From assembly GCA_017854485.1 (NCBI GenBank), contig JAFMHN010000006.1, positions 1 to 57,454 on the forward strand: a DNA stretch of 57,454 bases. Direction: 5' to 3'. Positions 5,208 to 25,798 of the stretch are shown here, in pieces. The notes below the pieces were generated by a model that saw only the letters and a list, made by a program, of their open reading frames with translations, made no database searches and had not been told where the DNA came from. A program made the translations under genes and the position numbers. This DNA comes from Aquiluna sp. Its GTDB lineage: Bacteria; Actinomycetota; Actinomycetes; Actinomycetales; Microbacteriaceae. Each line of letters begins with the position of its first letter. Within the stretch, counting starts at the first letter, position 1.

Positions 5208-5696
5208 TTAGCCATAAGTGTCGCGTGGGCCGCGTCCTGGAACCGACCGGGAGCCTTTTTTCCAACTTGGGGCCGTTGGGCCCAAAAACATCACCTGATC
5301 AATGATCAGGTTCGGGTGTTCGAGCTTTAGCTTTTCGAGGATCTGTGGTTCTAGTAGACGAAGCTGGGTCGCCCAGGCGGTCGATCGGCACCTGACCACC
5401 AATTGGGACCCCTTTAGTTCTTCTGGGAACGACGCCTCGGCGCTTTCTTTGCCGACCACCTTGTCCCAATCAGAGAACAGAGCAGCCTTCTCGAGCTGAC
5501 CTCCCCAGTTGAACTCGCCAAAAAGATGTTCCAGCCCCTGTTCGGCTGTGATGAGGTCCCGACCCTTGTCGAATGGTTTTGATCCGCGCTTTTGGTAGCG
5601 GTCACGCCTTTTTTCATCGCGGGACTTTATGCCGTGTGAGTTTGCCAGGAAACTCTTGAAGAAGCCGTCAGCCACATGGAAGTCCATCTCACGCAC
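5208..5696 (-). CDS. DciA-like DUF721 protein (helicase-loading factor family)
   Basis: A 162-residue protein with the DUF721 core at about residues 48-140 (WDKVVG, then FPEELKGSQLVVRC and TAWATQLRLLEPQI). Members are related to DciA, which helps load the replicative helicase DnaB in bacteria lacking DnaC/DnaI; no DnaC-like gene is seen here. The basic N-terminus (about 24-45) fits DNA binding. The chosen start is the GTG at 5696, because GAAGGGGG lies 6 nt upstream; the ATG at 5687 is an alternative. It overlaps the recF stop by 8 nt, so it belongs to the dnaN-recF transcription unit. Functional assignment rests on family and context. Confidence 0.85.
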   Translation of the reverse strand: MREMDFHVADGFFKSFLANSHGIKSRDEKRRDRYQKRGSKPFDKGRDLITAEQGLEHLFGEFNWGGQLEKAALFSDWDKVVGKESAEASFPEELKGSQLVVRCRSTAWATQLRLLEPQILEKLKLEHPNLIIDQVMFLGPTAPSWKKGSRSVPGRGPRDTYG

Positions 5697-6838: not shown

Positions 6839-7969
6839 TTATGAAACTAGAAGATTTGGCTGGAGCAGGTAACGGAAGTCTTTGTCGCCGTCTTTTGGAT
6901 CTACAGGGCTGATGAGTACCGGTCCTGGTTTGTTTGGATTGTTCGGGTTTACCGTGAAACCAATCTTGACGCTCTCGGCGTCTAGACCTGCTAAAGCATC
7001 AGACAAAAACTGCGGCCTAAGGGAAACAAGTGTTTCTCCGCCCTTTAGTGAGCACGCGATCTGTTCGGATGCATCAGCTACGTCCGAACCAATTGACTCA
7101 AGGGAGAGTTCACCCTCTGAGAACTTATAACGGAGTGGCTTCTCGCGGTCAACAACCAGCGCCACTCGTCTGGTGGCATTTAGTAGATCTTGGTTGTTCA
7201 AAACAGCGAAGTTTTCAGTGTCTTGAGGGAAAAGCTGCAGCACAGCTGGGTACTTACCCTTGATTGTGGCGGTAGACACTGTTTTGTTGCCGCTGGAAAA
7301 ACCAATCATTTCTTTCTCGGTCTCGCCGAACGCAAGTTCTAAATCGCCTTCATGGCTGAAGGTCTTAGCGATCTCGTTGAGGACCCGCGCTGGAATCAAG
7401 ACATCCCGGTCAATTGCTTTCCCTGTCCAAGGTAGTGACTTGACTGCAACTCGGAAGCGGTCGGTTGCAACCATTGTTAGGTTTTTCGCGTCAGCCTGGA
7501 TCATCACCGCGGTAAGCACTGGAGTAACTTCTTCTCGGGAGGCCGCTGATGCCACCTTCGCAACCGAGTTTGTGAATTCCGCTGCAGACACTTTCCCGGT
7601 TGCCGCTGGAAATTCAGGGGTATCCGGATAATCAGTTGTTGCCATGGAGGACAGCGAAAATTTGCTTGACCCTGAGGTCACCTGGAGCCTGGATTCGTCA
7701 ATCACCAAAGAGACAGAAGAGGCTGGTAGTTTGCTAACGATTTCAGATAGCAGTCGAGCTTGGACCAAAACCTTGCCTGGTGCTTCAACTGCGGCCGCAA
7801 TTTTTACCCTTGCCGCTACTTCGTAGTCAAAGATAGAGAGGACTACTTCGTCCTTTGTTGCTTCGATCATCACACCAGATAGCTGAGGAAGCTGTGGTCT
7901 TGGAGACAAAAGACGTACTAGAAAAGAAACAGCATCACTTAGAACTTCGCGATCGGCCTGAAATTTCAT
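6839..7969 (-). CDS. dnaN: DNA polymerase III beta sliding clamp
   Basis: The clamp that tethers DNA polymerase to the template, 376 residues, matching the family. Three beta-clamp domains follow one another, recognised by the start MKFQADREVLSDAVSFL, the central VLTAVMIQ..ATDRFRVAV segment, and the C-terminal FRYLLQP, the conserved hydrophobic-pocket end. The ATG at 7969 has AGGAAG 5-10 nt upstream. The gene is read away from the dnaA-dnaN gap and starts the recF-dciA series. Confidence 0.97.
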   Translation of the reverse strand: MKFQADREVLSDAVSFLVRLLSPRPQLPQLSGVMIEATKDEVVLSIFDYEVAARVKIAAAVEAPGKVLVQARLLSEIVSKLPASSVSLVIDESRLQVTSGSSKFSLSSMATTDYPDTPEFPAATGKVSAAEFTNSVAKVASAASREEVTPVLTAVMIQADAKNLTMVATDRFRVAVKSLPWTGKAIDRDVLIPARVLNEIAKTFSHEGDLELAFGETEKEMIGFSSGNKTVSTATIKGKYPAVLQLFPQDTENFAVLNNQDLLNATRRVALVVDREKPLRYKFSEGELSLESIGSDVADASEQIACSLKGGETLVSLRPQFLSDALAGLDAESVKIGFTVNPNNPNKPGPVLISPVDPKDGDKDFRYLLQPNLLVS

Positions 7970-8297
7970 TACAACTTCCTAGCTTTATGGGCTTTTATCT
8001 TGTCACAAAGCACCCACAGTTACACATTCGAGTATTTGGGGTTAAAAATAAAAAGTTTAAATATCTTTAATAATTACTAATAACCTGCTGTGGAAATGTG
8101 AATAACTAACTACTGCCCTTTTGTAATTTGAGAACTACATAGGTGTAAGTTGTTCACAGTTGTGGGGATAAGTCTGTGGATAACTACTAGTCCTGTTTAT
8201 AAATTAATTGAAATACACAAAAAGTGACAAGTTATTGGGTTTCTGAGACACTTTTATCAACAGAAATTTGTGTGGTTATCCACAGGTAGTTTGAAAA
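7970..8297. other. oriC: Probable oriC: dnaA-dnaN intergenic region
   Basis: This 328-bp gap holds no gene. It has a strongly AT-rich stretch at about 8041-8085, suited to unwinding. DnaA boxes follow: perfect copies TGTGGATAA at 8175-8183 and TTATCCACA at 8276-8284; single-mismatch copies at 8097-8105 (TGTGAATAA), 8163-8171 (TGGGGATAA) and 8254-8262 (TTATCAACA). A second AT-rich block lies at about 8196-8220. The dnaA-dnaN gap is the standard position of oriC in actinobacteria. Origin function itself is inferred. Confidence 0.8.
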
Positions 8298-9686
8298 CTA
8301 TTTGTGATTGTCTTTGATTTTCACGATGATCTCTGACACCTGGTTATAGATGTAGCGCTTTTCTCTCATCTGGGTGCTGATCTTTTTTGTCGCATACATC
8401 ACAGTCGTGTGGTCTCTGTTTCCGAAATGGGTCCCAATTTTGGGAAGCGATAAGTCTGTAAGCTCCCGGCAAATGTGCATCGCTATCTGCCTGGCAAGTG
8501 CGATTGCAGCCTGACGACCGGAACCAGTGATTTGTTCCTGGGTGATTTTGTAATAGGACGCCGTGGCAGCGATGATCTCCTGTGGGCTAATTCTCGTGTC
8601 CTCCGAGATCGAAAAGCTATCCTTCAGGACTGTCTGAATCAGTTCCATATCAATCTGCTGTCGATTTAGGTTCGCAAACGCAGTGACCCTGATTAGGGTC
8701 CCCTCTAGCTCTCTGATGTTTGAGGAAATTCTAGAGGCCATAAACTCAACGACCTCGTCAGGTATTTCGATTCGTTCAATCGCGGCTTTTTTCCTAAGAA
8801 TGGCAACACGGGTCTCGAACTCGGGCGCTTGAATGTCTGTGATCAAACCCCATTCGAAGCGCGATAGCATGCGCTCCTCAAATCCTTCAAGCTGCTTAGG
8901 CCTTAGGTCCGAGGTGATTACAACCTGTTTGTTGTGGTCGTGAAGGTTGTTAAAGGTGTGGAAGAAAGCCTCTTGGGTTTGGTCTTTACCCTGCAGGAAC
9001 TGAATGTCATCAACAAGCAGGATGTCCACGTCCCGGTACTGAGCCTGGAAGTCTGCTGTCTTGTTGTTCTGGATGGCGTTGATGAAGTCGTTCGTGAATT
9101 CTTCGCTGGATACGTAGCGAACTTTGGTTCTGGGCTTTAGGTGCATCGCATAGTGACCAATTGCGTGCAGCAGGTGAGTCTTACCCAAACCACTGGACCC
9201 ATATATGAACAGCGGGTTGTATGCCTCTGCCGGTGCCTCAGCGACCGCAAATGCGGCCGCGTGGGCAAAGCGGTTGGATCCTCCGGTTACAAAATTCTCG
9301 AAACTATATTTTGGGTTTAGGTGTGACTCGTCAGTTGTTGCCACTGGTCCCGTCGCAGGGTCCCGATCTACTACAGGAGGCTCTGGCTCCTGAACGAACT
9401 CAACTCGAGTCGGTGTTTGAAGGTCTTCGTTGGTGATTACTAGGAACGAAGTGGGCCCACCAAATTCGGCGATCTCACCCAGGGCATCCAGTAGTAACTC
9501 CCGCAACCGCTGCTGAAGCATTGACCTGGTGGTTTCGTTTGGAACTTCTAGGTAAAGGGTCTCGTCCAATACACCTTTTGGAACTGCAAGGTCTAGGTGG
9601 CCTCTGAGGTGTGGAGTGACGCGAGGGTCTGTCGAAATCTTGGCTACAAGGTTGCCCCACATTGTAGTGAGAGCGACGTCGGCCAT
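8298..9686 (-). CDS. dnaA: Chromosomal replication initiator DnaA
   Basis: AAA+ initiator that binds DnaA boxes and opens oriC; 462 residues from the ATG at 9686. That start (MADVALTTMW) has AAGGA 8 nt upstream and matches the domain I beginning; the frame extends to 9731 but has no better start. Domain I covers about residues 1-90, a Pro/Asp-rich linker about 95-125, then the AAA+ core with Walker A GSSGLGKT (163-170) and Walker B DILLVDDIQF. The C-terminal helix-turn-helix carries the DnaA signature FGNRDHTTVMYA. A perfect DnaA box at 9712-9720 lies only 25 nt before the start, consistent with autoregulation. Confidence 0.98.
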   Translation of the reverse strand: MADVALTTMWGNLVAKISTDPRVTPHLRGHLDLAVPKGVLDETLYLEVPNETTRSMLQQRLRELLLDALGEIAEFGGPTSFLVITNEDLQTPTRVEFVQEPEPPVVDRDPATGPVATTDESHLNPKYSFENFVTGGSNRFAHAAAFAVAEAPAEAYNPLFIYGSSGLGKTHLLHAIGHYAMHLKPRTKVRYVSSEEFTNDFINAIQNNKTADFQAQYRDVDILLVDDIQFLQGKDQTQEAFFHTFNNLHDHNKQVVITSDLRPKQLEGFEERMLSRFEWGLITDIQAPEFETRVAILRKKAAIERIEIPDEVVEFMASRISSNIRELEGTLIRVTAFANLNRQQIDMELIQTVLKDSFSISEDTRISPQEIIAATASYYKITQEQITGSGRQAAIALARQIAMHICRELTDLSLPKIGTHFGNRDHTTVMYATKKISTQMREKRYIYNQVSEIIVKIKDNHK

Positions 9687-9997
9687 GGTCCAATCCTTAC
9701 GAGTAGAGAAGTTATCCACAGATTTTTGCACACATTAGGCACCCTGTGGAAAAACCATGAAGTGCTGTGGAAAACTAGAAGGCTATTCCCATTGCACTTC
9801 GATTGGAACATTCAAGTGGAAAGCCAGGACAAATATCAAATCCTTTCGGCGTGTCGCTCCCAATTTTTATGTTTTTTTATGAGAAGCGAGCCTCTGGGAA
9901 CATATTTGCAGTTAGTGCCTTGACTATCTAGCGGATACAGCGTAGATTACTGAAGTTGTTTTGGGACTTAATGCCCAACAGATCCAGGGAGTCTTCA
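9687..9997. promoter_or_regulatory. dnaA-rpmH divergent control region with DnaA boxes
   Basis: A 311-bp gap between divergent dnaA and rpmH with no gene. A perfect DnaA box TTATCCACA is at 9712-9720. Two one-mismatch boxes, TGTGGAAAA, are at 9745-9753 and 9766-9774. These sit where the dnaA promoter and leader must be, so DnaA autorepression is likely. The right side holds the rpmH promoter, listed separately. No clear dnaA -35/-10 pair could be picked out by eye. Confidence 0.7.
9920..9948 (+). promoter_or_regulatory. Promoter of rpmH operon
   Basis: TTGACT at 9920-9925 and TAGATT at 9943-9948 are separated by exactly 17 nt, a near-consensus housekeeping promoter reading towards rpmH. The predicted transcript start is about 9955, leaving a leader of roughly 43 nt with an AGGGAG ribosome site before the GTG at 9998. 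Confidence 0.75.
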
Positions 9998-22515: not shown

Positions 22516-22920
22516 ATGCATAACTACGAGCTGATGGTCATTATGGACCCCTCAGAAGATGAGCGCACAGTAGCCCCAACACTCGACAAGTTCCTAAAGG
22601 TAATCACCACAGCTGGTGGCACCGTGGACAAGATCGATATTTGGGGTCGCCGTCGCATGACATACGAAATCAAGAAGCACTCAGAAGGGCTATACGCAGT
22701 CATCAACATGACCTGCAGCTCCGAGGCTGTTATCGAGCTTGACCGTCAGCTAAGGCTGAACGAGTCATTCCTTAGAACCAAGGTTCTAAGGCTGGAAGAT
22801 GCAGTATTCAGCATCAACCCAATGGAATTTGTCCCAGAAGAGAAGCCAGCACGTGCCGGCCGCGGTGGACCCCGTGGTGGAGCACGCGGCAAGCGTCCAG
22901 CAGGCGCAAAGGCTGACTAA
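22516..22920 (+). CDS. rpsF: 30S ribosomal protein S6
   Basis: A 134-residue S6 with the family start [12 protein letters not shown] and the conserved [16 protein letters not shown] segment. The C-terminus is an Arg/Gly-rich tail ([16 protein letters not shown]) longer than in E. coli. A strong AGGAGG site lies 10 nt before the ATG. First gene of rpsF-ssb-rpsR-rplI; its stop overlaps the ssb start by 1 nt. Confidence 0.97.
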
Positions 22921-23411
22921 TGGCAGGCGAGGTTAGCGTAACCATCGTTGGCAACTTGGCCGACGATCCGGAACTCCGCTACACCCAGGGTGGTGTCGCC
23001 GTGGCTTCAGTCCGCGTTGGCTCAACCCCAAGAACCTTTAACCGTTCCACCAACGAGTGGGTAGACGGCGAGACCGTATGGGTTCGTTGCACCGCATGGC
23101 GCGAGGTTGCAGAAAACGTAGCTCAGTCACTGACCAAGGGAACCCGTGTTGTGGTTACCGGTCGACTGAAGCCACCTTCTGCCTACCAGAGCGCTCAGGG
23201 TGAAGCGAGAGCGTCGCTTGAGCTGGAAATCGACGAAATTGGACCATCACTGCGCTACGCAACAGCGAGCGTAACAAGGCGTGCCCGCGAGGGTTCTGCT
23301 CAGGTTGAGTCACCTTGGGGTGGCCAGCAGGCAGAAACAAAGCAGGCCTCCTCTGGAGCTGAAGCATGGGCAAACCCCGCTACAGCACCGAGTGACGAAG
23401 CACCTTTTTAG
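22920..23411 (+). CDS. ssb: Single-stranded DNA-binding protein
   Basis: A 163-residue SSB with one OB-fold (about residues 4-110): VTIVGNLADDPELRYTQGG at the start, then VRCTAWREVAENVAQSL and GRLKPP. A flexible linker follows and the protein ends SDEAPF, the acidic interaction tail that recruits replication and repair proteins. It sits in the conserved rpsF-ssb-rpsR-rplI order. Start ATG at 22920 overlaps the rpsF stop. Confidence 0.97.
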   Translation: MAGEVSVTIVGNLADDPELRYTQGGVAVASVRVGSTPRTFNRSTNEWVDGETVWVRCTAWREVAENVAQSLTKGTRVVVTGRLKPPSAYQSAQGEARASLELEIDEIGPSLRYATASVTRRAREGSAQVESPWGGQQAETKQASSGAEAWANPATAPSDEAPF

Positions 23412-23433
23412 AAAGACCTAGGAGACAAATAAC

Positions 23434-23688
23434 ATGGCAGGAAAGTCAGCTGACCGCCGCAAGAAGATGAACTCTAAGTTCGACAAACTTGCGCCGGCAA
23501 AGACGATCAAGATCGAGGTAATCGATTACAAGGACGTCGCAACACTTCGCAAATTCGTAACCGACCGCGGCAAAATCCGTGCTCGTCGTATCACCGGTGC
23601 AACGGTGCAGGACCAGCGCAAGATTGCTACGGCCATCAAGAACGCACGAGAAATGGCGATCATGCCATACTCCGGTTCTGGACGCTAG
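23434..23688 (+). CDS. rpsR: 30S ribosomal protein S18 (cysteine-free form)
   Basis: An 84-residue S18 with [19 protein letters not shown] and [23 protein letters not shown]. There is no cysteine anywhere: the N-terminal CxxC zinc site of the C+ form is replaced by [12 protein letters not shown]. It is therefore of the zinc-independent type although located in the main ribosomal operon. Ribosome site AGGAGACAAAT precedes the ATG. Confidence 0.96.
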
Positions 23689-23699
23689 GAGATAAGCAC

Positions 23700-24152
23700 A
23701 TGTCAAAACTAATTCTGACCAACGAGGTCTCGGGCCTTGGCTCTGCAGGCGATGTCGTTGAGGTCAAGGATGGTTACGCACGTAACTTCCTAGTACCAAA
23801 CGGCCTAGCTGTTGTCTGGAGCCGCGGTGGCGAGAAGCAGGTCACACAGATCCGCGACGCACGCGACGCACGCGCCATTGCATCTGAAGAGATCGCCATG
23901 GAAATCAAGTCAAAGTTGGAGGGAACCGTCCTTCGCATCACTGCAAAGGCCGGCGCCAACGGCCGCCTGTTTGGCGCAGTGAAGACCTCCGACATCGCAG
24001 ATGCCGTCAAGGCACTGGGATTCGGTGATGTTGACAAGCGCAAGATCGAATTTGCATCATCGATCCGCACAACCGGTGACTACGAGGCGAGTGTTCGTTT
24101 GAACTCTGACCTAGTTGCCCAGGTAAAGCTTCAGGTGGTAGCTGCTAAGTAG
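23700..24152 (+). CDS. rplI: 50S ribosomal protein L9
   Basis: A 150-residue L9 with the N-terminal RNA-binding domain ([25 protein letters not shown]) and a C-terminal domain joined by a helix. Length is normal. AGGAGAT precedes the ATG. It closes the operon and is followed at once by a strong terminator. Confidence 0.97.
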
Positions 24153-24165
24153 TGGCTCACCATAG

Positions 24166-24200
24166 GAACAACCCGTCGGAAACGGCGGGTTGTTCTCTTT
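24166..24200 (+). terminator. Intrinsic terminator after rplI
   Basis: GAACAACCCG (24166-24175) pairs with CGGGTTGTTC (24186-24195), extended by inner base pairs to a GAAA tetraloop, and is followed by TCTTTT. It ends the rpsF-rplI operon just before the DnaA-box cluster. Confidence 0.92.
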
Positions 24201-24204
24201 TAAG

Positions 24205-24390
24205 GGGATGTTTTCCACAACCTTGAGGTTGAGCTTTAGAGTTTTCAACAATATATTTATCCACAGCTAGATGCCAGTAAACTAAAGGGATAGCGAAAGT
24301 TGTTAGTTTTTTATCCACAGGTTATCCACAGTTACTAACAGGTTTCATCGGCGTGTTTCCACAGGGTTATCCACAGTTATCCGCAGACTG
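24205..24390. other. Cluster of DnaA boxes upstream of dnaB
   Basis: The 302-bp rplI-dnaB gap carries four perfect DnaA boxes, all TTATCCACA on the plus strand: 24257-24265, 24311-24319, 24322-24330, 24367-24375. One-mismatch boxes are at 24211-24219 (TTTTCCACA) and 24377-24385 (TTATCCGCA), with a weaker GTTTCCACA at 24355-24363. Spacing between neighbours can be as little as 1-2 nt, as in initiator-binding arrays. The stretch 24241-24260 is AT-rich. The cluster could control dnaB, titrate DnaA or take part in replication initiation. Confidence 0.85.
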
Positions 24391-24454
24391 ATTTGTATGC
24401 ACCGTGTCGGTGCCCCAAGCTATACATGGTTTATCGCAAATCCGGAGGGAATAT

Positions 24455-25798
24455 ATGTCGATGTTGGCGCCTTCAACGGCAGCGGATCCACGCGTACCCC
24501 CGCACAACCTTGAAGCAGAACAGTCCACTCTAGGTGGCATGCTGCTGAGCCAAGAGGCAGTGGCAGAAGTTGTTGAGGAAGTCAGCAGCTTTGACTTCTA
24601 CGCCGGTAAGCATGAATTGATTTTCAACGCAATCGTGAACCTTTTTGGAAAAGGCGAACCGACTGACGTTATCGCAGTTACTGATGAACTAAATAAGCAG
24701 GGAAATCTTCTAAAAGCCGGCGGTAGCGACTACCTGCACTCACTTGCAAGCTATGTTCCGACCGCAGCTGCCGCTGGTTACTACGCGAGCATCGTTGCCG
24801 AAAAGGCAATTCTTAGAAGGTTGATCGAGGCCGGGACCAGGATTGCCCAGTCTGGCTATGAGAGCCAGGGCGAAGTTGTGGATCTTGTGAACCAAGCCCA
24901 GGCTGACCTTTATAAGGTGGCCAGCCAGTCCTCCAAGGAGGACTATGTTGGCCTGAGCGAATCGCTTGAAGCGGCCATTCACGAAATTGAAGTGGCTCAG
25001 AATCGTGGCGGCGAGCTCACTGGAACCCCTACCGGTTTCACGGATCTAGATGCCTATACCCATGGATTGCACCCCGGACAGCTGGTTATTGTTGCGGCCA
25101 GGCCCGCGGTTGGTAAGTCGACATTTGCTCTGGATATCGCCAGAAACGCATCGGTCAAGCACAACCAAGCGACGATCTTCTTCTCGCTCGAAATGGGTCG
25201 GGCTGAAATCGCAATGCGAATGCTCAGCGCCGAAAGCTCGATTTACCTGCAGAGCATGCGTAAAGGAACAATTTCTGACGGCGACTGGACCAGGCTCGCA
25301 GCGGTGAGAGGTCGGATCAATGATGCACCGCTCTACATCGATGACTCTCCAAACATGTCTCTGGTTGAAATTAGGGCTAAGTGCCGTCGCCTCGCTCAGC
25401 AGGTTGACCTGAAGTTGGTGGTCATCGACTACATCCAGCTGATGTCCAGCGGTAAGAAGGTCGAGTCGCGTCAGCAAGAGGTTTCTGAGTTCTCAAGGGC
25501 GCTGAAGCTGCTCGCCAAAGAGCTCGGAGTCCCGGTTGTTGCCCTGTCACAGCTAAACCGTCAGGCAGAACAGTCCAAGGACAAGCGGCCAGAGCTTTCT
25601 CACCTGCGTGAATCCGGATCTCTGGAGCAGGACGCCGACGTTGTCGTACTGCTTCACCGAGAGGGTATTTATGAGCGGGATCATCCGCGTGCAGGCGAGG
25701 CAGATCTGATTCTTGCCAAGCAGCGAAATGGACCAACCGGAACGGTCACAGTTGCCTTCCATGGACAGTATTCGCGTTTCGTGAATATGCCAAGCTAG
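24455..25798 (+). CDS. dnaB: Replicative DNA helicase DnaB
   Basis: Hexameric 5'-3' helicase of the replication fork; 447 residues from the ATG at 24455. That start has GGAGGG 6 nt upstream; the frame is open to 24404 but has no such site. The N-terminal collar begins PPHNLEAEQSTLGGMLL; the RecA-like domain has Walker A ARPAVGKST, Walker B LKLVVIDYIQLM, and the C-terminal LSHLRESGSLEQDADVV and AKQRNGPTG motifs. No intein is present. Its upstream region is filled with DnaA boxes. Confidence 0.97.
   Translation: MSMLAPSTAADPRVPPHNLEAEQSTLGGMLLSQEAVAEVVEEVSSFDFYAGKHELIFNAIVNLFGKGEPTDVIAVTDELNKQGNLLKAGGSDYLHSLASYVPTAAAAGYYASIVAEKAILRRLIEAGTRIAQSGYESQGEVVDLVNQAQADLYKVASQSSKEDYVGLSESLEAAIHEIEVAQNRGGELTGTPTGFTDLDAYTHGLHPGQLVIVAARPAVGKSTFALDIARNASVKHNQATIFFSLEMGRAEIAMRMLSAESSIYLQSMRKGTISDGDWTRLAAVRGRINDAPLYIDDSPNMSLVEIRAKCRRLAQQVDLKLVVIDYIQLMSSGKKVESRQQEVSEFSRALKLLAKELGVPVVALSQLNRQAEQSKDKRPELSHLRESGSLEQDADVVVLLHREGIYERDHPRAGEADLILAKQRNGPTGTVTVAFHGQYSRFVNMPS

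Follow-up and report, generated by a model that had tools for sequence, protein, structure and literature searches.

A one-way array of predicted DnaA boxes kept upstream of dnaB in Aquiluna and much of the class Actinomycetes is likely a DnaA-binding region of the helicase gene promoter

The best-known task of DnaA is to open the replication origin, and how the supply of the replicative helicase is matched to initiation is much less clear. For the mycobacteria, the passages covered of PMC7738170 report that purified Mycobacterium tuberculosis DnaA enriched five regions, including one upstream of dnaB, that the homologous five DnaA-bound regions were found by ChIP-seq in M. smegmatis, and that the M. 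tuberculosis DnaA variant I282T binds less at the dnaB promoter and uniquely under-expresses dnaB. On the strength of these passages, binding of DnaA in front of dnaB is already in print for mycobacteria, and is cited there for Caulobacter (PMC7738170). Among the literature searched, this was the only source whose covered passages bring the phrase 'upstream of dnaB' together with DnaA; those of a Caulobacter paper (PMC3193534) do not mention dnaB, and those of PMC6478999 use the dnaB promoter only in a construct. In E. coli, DnaA binds in vivo mainly to pairs of boxes 2-3 bp apart, according to the portion covered of PMC11317965. Here we describe an array of predicted DnaA boxes in front of dnaB in a 57,454-nucleotide stretch of DNA from an Aquiluna sp. 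(Microbacteriaceae), which was analysed at its full length and is called the window below.

The window comes from a 1.22-Mb genome in 34 contigs, and its DnaB shares 93% identity with the counterpart in Candidatus Aquiluna sp. IMCC13023. The dnaB start is likely ATG 24455, with GGAGGG at 24444, and not the upstream GTG of the longest open reading frame. Within the resulting rplI-dnaB gap of 302 bp (Table 1) lie six boxes with at most one mismatch, four of them perfect. All six are on the plus strand and face dnaB, and together they occupy 24211-24385 (175 bp). The box scan thereby bears out the original prediction of four perfect boxes in one orientation and at least two one-mismatch boxes within about 175 bp, along with its neighbour gaps of 2 bp (pair 24311/24322) and 1 bp (pair 24367/24377). 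An additional weak box with two mismatches is found in 18 of the 20 aligned genus sequences, the other two carrying GTTTACACA in its place. Elsewhere in the window, a DciA-family protein (5208-5696) adjoins a recF-like gene; Pfam names DciA as the antecedent of the DnaC/DnaI loaders.

Table 1. Features of the window around dnaA and dnaB (positions are those of the window; boxes are predicted DnaA boxes)
Feature	Position	Strand	Remarks
dnaN	6839-7969	-	
dnaA-dnaN gap, expected oriC	7970..8297	-	2 perfect boxes (8175, 8276); 86% AT stretch
dnaA ORF	8298-9731	-	
dnaA promoter region	9712..9774	.	three boxes before likely dnaA start (~9686); box scan
rpsF-ssb-rplI-dnaB block	22516-25798	+	~15 kb from dnaA/dnaN
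rplI	23700-24152	+	flanks array on side away from dnaB
rplI terminator-like hairpin (24165-24196) and short T-rich tail	24165..24203	+	14-bp stem; -25.3 kcal/mol; z -6.0
Distal box TTTTCCACA, 1 mismatch	24211..24219	+	column perfect in 13/20 aligned genus sequences
CTTTAGAGTTTTC, candidate element	24234..24246	+	partly conserved in alignment of 20 genus sequences
Box TTATCCACA, perfect	24257..24265	+	box scan
Box TTATCCACA, perfect, first of pair 2 bp apart	24311..24319	+	box scan
Box TTATCCACA, perfect, second of pair 2 bp apart	24322..24330	+	box scan
CGGCGTGTTTC element	24349..24359	+	first ten bases in 20/20 aligned genus sequences, final C in 18/20; family form CGGCGTTTC
Weak box GTTTCCACA, two mismatches	24355..24363	+	overlaps CGGCGTGTTTC element; 3 bp before box 24367
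Box TTATCCACA, perfect	24367..24375	+	identical in 20/20 aligned genus sequences
Promoter-proximal box TTATCCGCA, 1 mismatch	24377..24385	+	begins 28 bp after CGGCGT start, the position of the wider-family box
Predicted dnaB promoter	24392..24426	+	TTTG (24392-24395), -10-like TATACA (24421-24426); TATACA in 20/20 genus sequences
dnaB, replicative helicase	24455..25798	+	447 aa from ATG 24455; TIGR00665, 3.5e-158

Boxes are over-represented in the window as a whole, where 19 boxes with at most one mismatch stand against 8.0 +/- 3.0 expected, a number reached in 0 of 100 shuffles. The whole 1.22-Mb genome contains nine perfect boxes: four lie in the array, two in the dnaA-dnaN gap, one before the likely dnaA start and two elsewhere, which agrees with the earlier count by eye that the array is richer in perfect boxes than the dnaA-dnaN gap. 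In the complete genome of a relative (G001), only three places have at least three boxes (at most one mismatch) per 300 bp, namely the start of dnaA, the gap that follows this gene and the region in front of dnaB, the last of which is the densest cluster with six boxes. A pattern of two perfect boxes in the same orientation, with no more than 30 bp between them, gave 44 matches in 22 genus genomes, 33 of them before dnaB (at most 420 bp after rplI), 11 at most 450 bp past the end of dnaA and none elsewhere; three of these 22 genomes (G005, G007 and G012) have no match to the pattern. The three boxes before the likely dnaA start in the window suggest autoregulation of dnaA. Three further box clusters near the origin, besides those at oriC, dnaA and dnaB, are seen in the relative G121 (C1:1392495, 1435098 and 1456026; L444, L446 and L447).

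The original prediction had proposed comparing the gap in close relatives, and there the boxes are kept at dnaB throughout. Counting boxes with at most one mismatch to TTATCCACA or TTGTCCACA within 500 bp upstream of dnaB, in family, order, class and phylum loci that were the best 30 matches of each search plus 40 hand-picked family stretches, and leaving out loci with less than 450 bp upstream of dnaB or with identical upstream sequence (family 61 to 60, class 42 to 35), we found at least three boxes in 19/19 genus, 51/60 family, 21/31 order and 18/35 class sequences, and in 0/28 from other classes of the phylum. The mean number of boxes per upstream region declines in the same order, from 6.1 in the genus through 3.8 (family), 3.2 (order) and 2.5 (class) to 0.4 in the other classes, with 0.1-0.3 in shuffles. 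Boxes are most concentrated in the ~400 bp before the dnaB start, and their density falls to almost zero within the gene and farther upstream. Such boxes are also carried by a Rhodoluna MAG (L019); for Rhodoluna lacicola, a cultured relative from freshwater, gene-inactivation tools have been published (PMC11577799). Among 34 scored dnaB loci of named non-actinobacterial organisms, 25 have no box, eight have one and one has two. Within the order and class, no box was found at dnaB in 9/66 loci, including all three sampled genomes of lineage f12 (G129, G146, G163) and three of four of f7 (G124, G142, G159; the fourth, G175, has one box), with single further cases in G174, G183 and G209; the missing arrays, those of the order relatives in f12 and f7 included, are apparent losses. 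Three named Streptomyces/Kitasatospora dnaB loci likewise have no box, and no rplI in the 3 kb before them; these may be second helicase genes.

With rplI directly upstream of dnaB in the window, the array could be a feature of either gene, and loci in which the two lie apart tell them apart. Across 54 scored order and class loci (L268 and L288 left out), at least three boxes are found at dnaB in 5/12 loci with rplI less than 1.2 kb away, 23/29 at 1.2-5 kb, 4/8 at 5-50 kb, 0/3 beyond 50 kb and 1/2 with rplI on another contig, such that 27/37 of those with a separation of 1.2-50 kb retain the array. Loci outside this table have six boxes at a separation of 5 kb (G155), three at 25 kb (G135), five at 89 kb (G153), four at 126 kb (G121) and one at 16 kb (G231). 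Where more than 50 kb or a contig boundary separates dnaB from rplI, at least three boxes are present in 3/7 cases and fewer than three in 4/7. The rplI side was read in 15 separated-gene genomes, a non-random set chosen for dnaB/rplI separation or absent boxes, for which the 54-locus table is the fuller count: five keep at least three boxes at dnaB, three have one and seven none, and the 500 bp after rplI never hold more than one box, with a single box in G124 only. We accordingly rejected the array as an rplI-associated feature, since separated loci keep boxes at dnaB and have at most one after rplI; the array mostly goes with dnaB.

The sequence between rplI and dnaB also has the layout of a separate promoter. 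The terminator-like hairpin after rplI, for which an equally good fold arose in 0/200 shuffles, implies that dnaB should have its own promoter and transcription unit. A consensus scan listed no plus-strand terminator and gave a minus-strand terminator-like match over this hairpin; its promoter search did not list the conserved TATACA, and two other promoter-like matches that it returned in the distal part were set aside, their TATATT half not being conserved in the genus alignment. All 20 aligned genus sequences are identical in CGGCGTGTTT, in a TTATCCACA box 18 bp after the start of CGGCGTGTTT, in TTG and in AAGCTATACA. The spacing from TTG to TATACA is 22 bp in the genus, as against 16-18 bp in the wider family, which makes the -35 element in the genus uncertain. 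In Microbacteriaceae sequences, near-identical ones included, selected for having both the CGGCGT element and a box, so that the conservation of those two is not independent, a -35-like TTG lies 7-8 bp past the end of the promoter-proximal box in 28/31, and a TANNNT -10 follows after a 16-18 bp spacer in 25/30.

The CGGCGT element is, within the genus, conserved to the same degree as the boxes, and its exact genus form, the 11-mer CGGCGTGTTTC, has a single occurrence in the complete G001 genome. With near-identical loci included, 47/61 family loci carry CGGCGT[GT]T on the forward strand and four on the reverse strand, and a box begins exactly 28 bp after the forward element in 30 of the 47; outside Microbacteriaceae the element is much rarer in the sample (7/31 order and 6/39 class loci). 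In counts on the same basis, boxes face dnaB in 114/116 cases in the genus and 214/234 in the family, and gaps of 2-3 bp account for 96/122 box pairs in the family, 26/39 in the order and 29/41 in the class, with the genus also featuring 1-bp gaps (25 pairs in 17/20 loci). By comparison, 71 kb of dnaB coding sequence from the genus and family contain no box pair at most 12 bp apart.

Two attributes of DnaA-regulated promoters are thus found together at this locus, namely several boxes beyond chance beside a predicted promoter and closely spaced, same-facing box pairs. We consider it likely, though well short of assured, that the array is a DnaA-binding upstream region of the dnaB promoter, from which DnaA most likely recruits RNA polymerase to dnaB. 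DnaA would bind the same-facing boxes, which are often separated by 1-3 bp and end just upstream of the -35 position; the bound DnaA would recruit RNA polymerase to dnaB, and the supply of helicase would rise as active DnaA rises. For Aquiluna, we infer the DnaA binding itself, its activating sign and its ATP dependence. Activation is the most likely sign because the boxes lie upstream of the -35 position and because the mycobacterial mutant binds less and makes less dnaB, an analogy drawn from a single mutant protein of a different group within the class. Of the roles first suggested for the array, a link between helicase supply and initiation appears the best supported, judging from boxes that accompany dnaB in most of the sequences sampled and keep a fixed distance to the promoter; by analogy, it is also favoured by the mycobacterial region upstream of dnaB, a DnaA-binding site in the passages covered of PMC7738170. 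More tentatively, and as an extension that could well prove wrong, we posit a feed-forward circuit in the class Actinomycetes, in which a DnaA filament on the one-way array would switch on dnaB and, in Microbacteriaceae, a second, CGGCGT-binding regulator positioned 28 bp from the promoter-proximal box would act with DnaA; such a circuit would be old.

The array might instead be mainly a sink that lowers free DnaA after duplication of the origin region, in the manner of datA, and lie beside dnaB by happenstance. Restraint of untimely initiation by box clusters is cited for Streptomyces and Bacillus in the passages covered of PMC4585315 and PMC5742627, and titration is reported in E. coli in those of PMC12371093. 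The array is the densest box cluster of G001, lies 13-14 kb from dnaA wherever a single genus contig carries both, and is kept at 64-130 kb from dnaA (G153, G135, G121) and absent at 267 kb (G129), as an early-copied sink would be; G159, however, is without an array despite a dnaB only ~51 kb from dnaA. Against a sink also speak the association of the array with dnaB instead of rplI where the two genes are apart, and the fixed promoter spacing, which titration does not require. As the main function we therefore regard titration as rather unlikely; the earlier suggestion that the array titrates DnaA holds as a possible role, alone or in addition, but does not by itself explain the promoter spacing, and titration may add to the activation of dnaB.

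E. coli DnaA represses its own gene, and the opposite sign of control, in which DnaA would repress dnaB and the helicase would be made when active DnaA is low, has to be weighed as well. Boxes near a promoter can block it, and the dnaA promoter region in the window also carries boxes. Yet the conserved boxes upstream of dnaB end before the -35 position and do not lie over the promoter, and the mycobacterial mutant with weaker binding makes less dnaB in the passages covered of PMC7738170, which together leave repression quite improbable.

A second or true replication origin, as also suggested at first, gains from the higher number of perfect boxes in the array than in the dnaA-dnaN gap and from a local skew low in G001 whose depth near dnaB slightly exceeds that near dnaN. 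The AT-rich stretch noted beside the boxes is indeed present but modest, at most 70% AT in 50 bp as against 86% in the dnaA-dnaN gap, and so offers no strongly AT-rich unwinding stretch. The skew signal within the window is too weak to place an origin within 15 kb, as it is in G001, where the minimum is at 117,579 and the values near dnaB and dnaN differ little. The GC-skew check proposed with the original prediction could be resolved in one relative, G121, in which dnaB and dnaA are 130 kb apart: on either side of dnaB the cumulative skew declines (-1463 and -1890 over 60 kb), and its minimum (1,412,821) is near dnaA (1,398,098), ~13 kb beyond the boxes after this gene, with the array (1,268,783) inside one arm. 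The array is probably not an origin; the modest AT content and this one genome leave the origin reading very little credence. Chance or compositional enrichment deserves practically none and is already refuted by the conservation of the array, with shuffles reaching three boxes in just 0-1.6% by group as against 19/19 in the genus, and none matching the box count of the window.

Returning to the preferred reading of a DnaA-bound activating region, the literature searched yielded no account of class-wide conservation of such an array, of same-facing paired boxes at dnaB or of a CGGCGT element at fixed spacing. That the array is kept with dnaB across much of the class, and in one family at a constant distance from the promoter, suggests a further role for the initiator, in setting the supply of the helicase that it helps load. 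The mycobacterial binding peak becomes a testable, conserved circuit, to which a conserved CGGCGT element is added.

Taking the known systems in turn, and as far as the passages covered of each source go, the Caulobacter case (Hottes 2005, cited in PMC7738170) resembles ours in having the initiator upstream of the helicase gene and differs in belonging to another phylum. The Streptomyces cluster near oriC (Smulczyk-Krawczyszyn 2006; PMC4585315, PMC5742627) also consists of actinomycete boxes that lie outside oriC and take part in the control of replication. The double-box promoters of E. coli (PMC11317965) share the boxes 2-3 bp apart, whereas the Aquiluna array has more boxes, the 1-bp gaps of the genus and dnaB as its target. 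In Mycobacterium (PMC7738170), which belongs to the same class, the DnaA site also precedes dnaB, and a mutant ties weaker binding to lower dnaB expression; what sets the Microbacteriaceae apart is their CGGCGT element, so much rarer outside that family in our sample.
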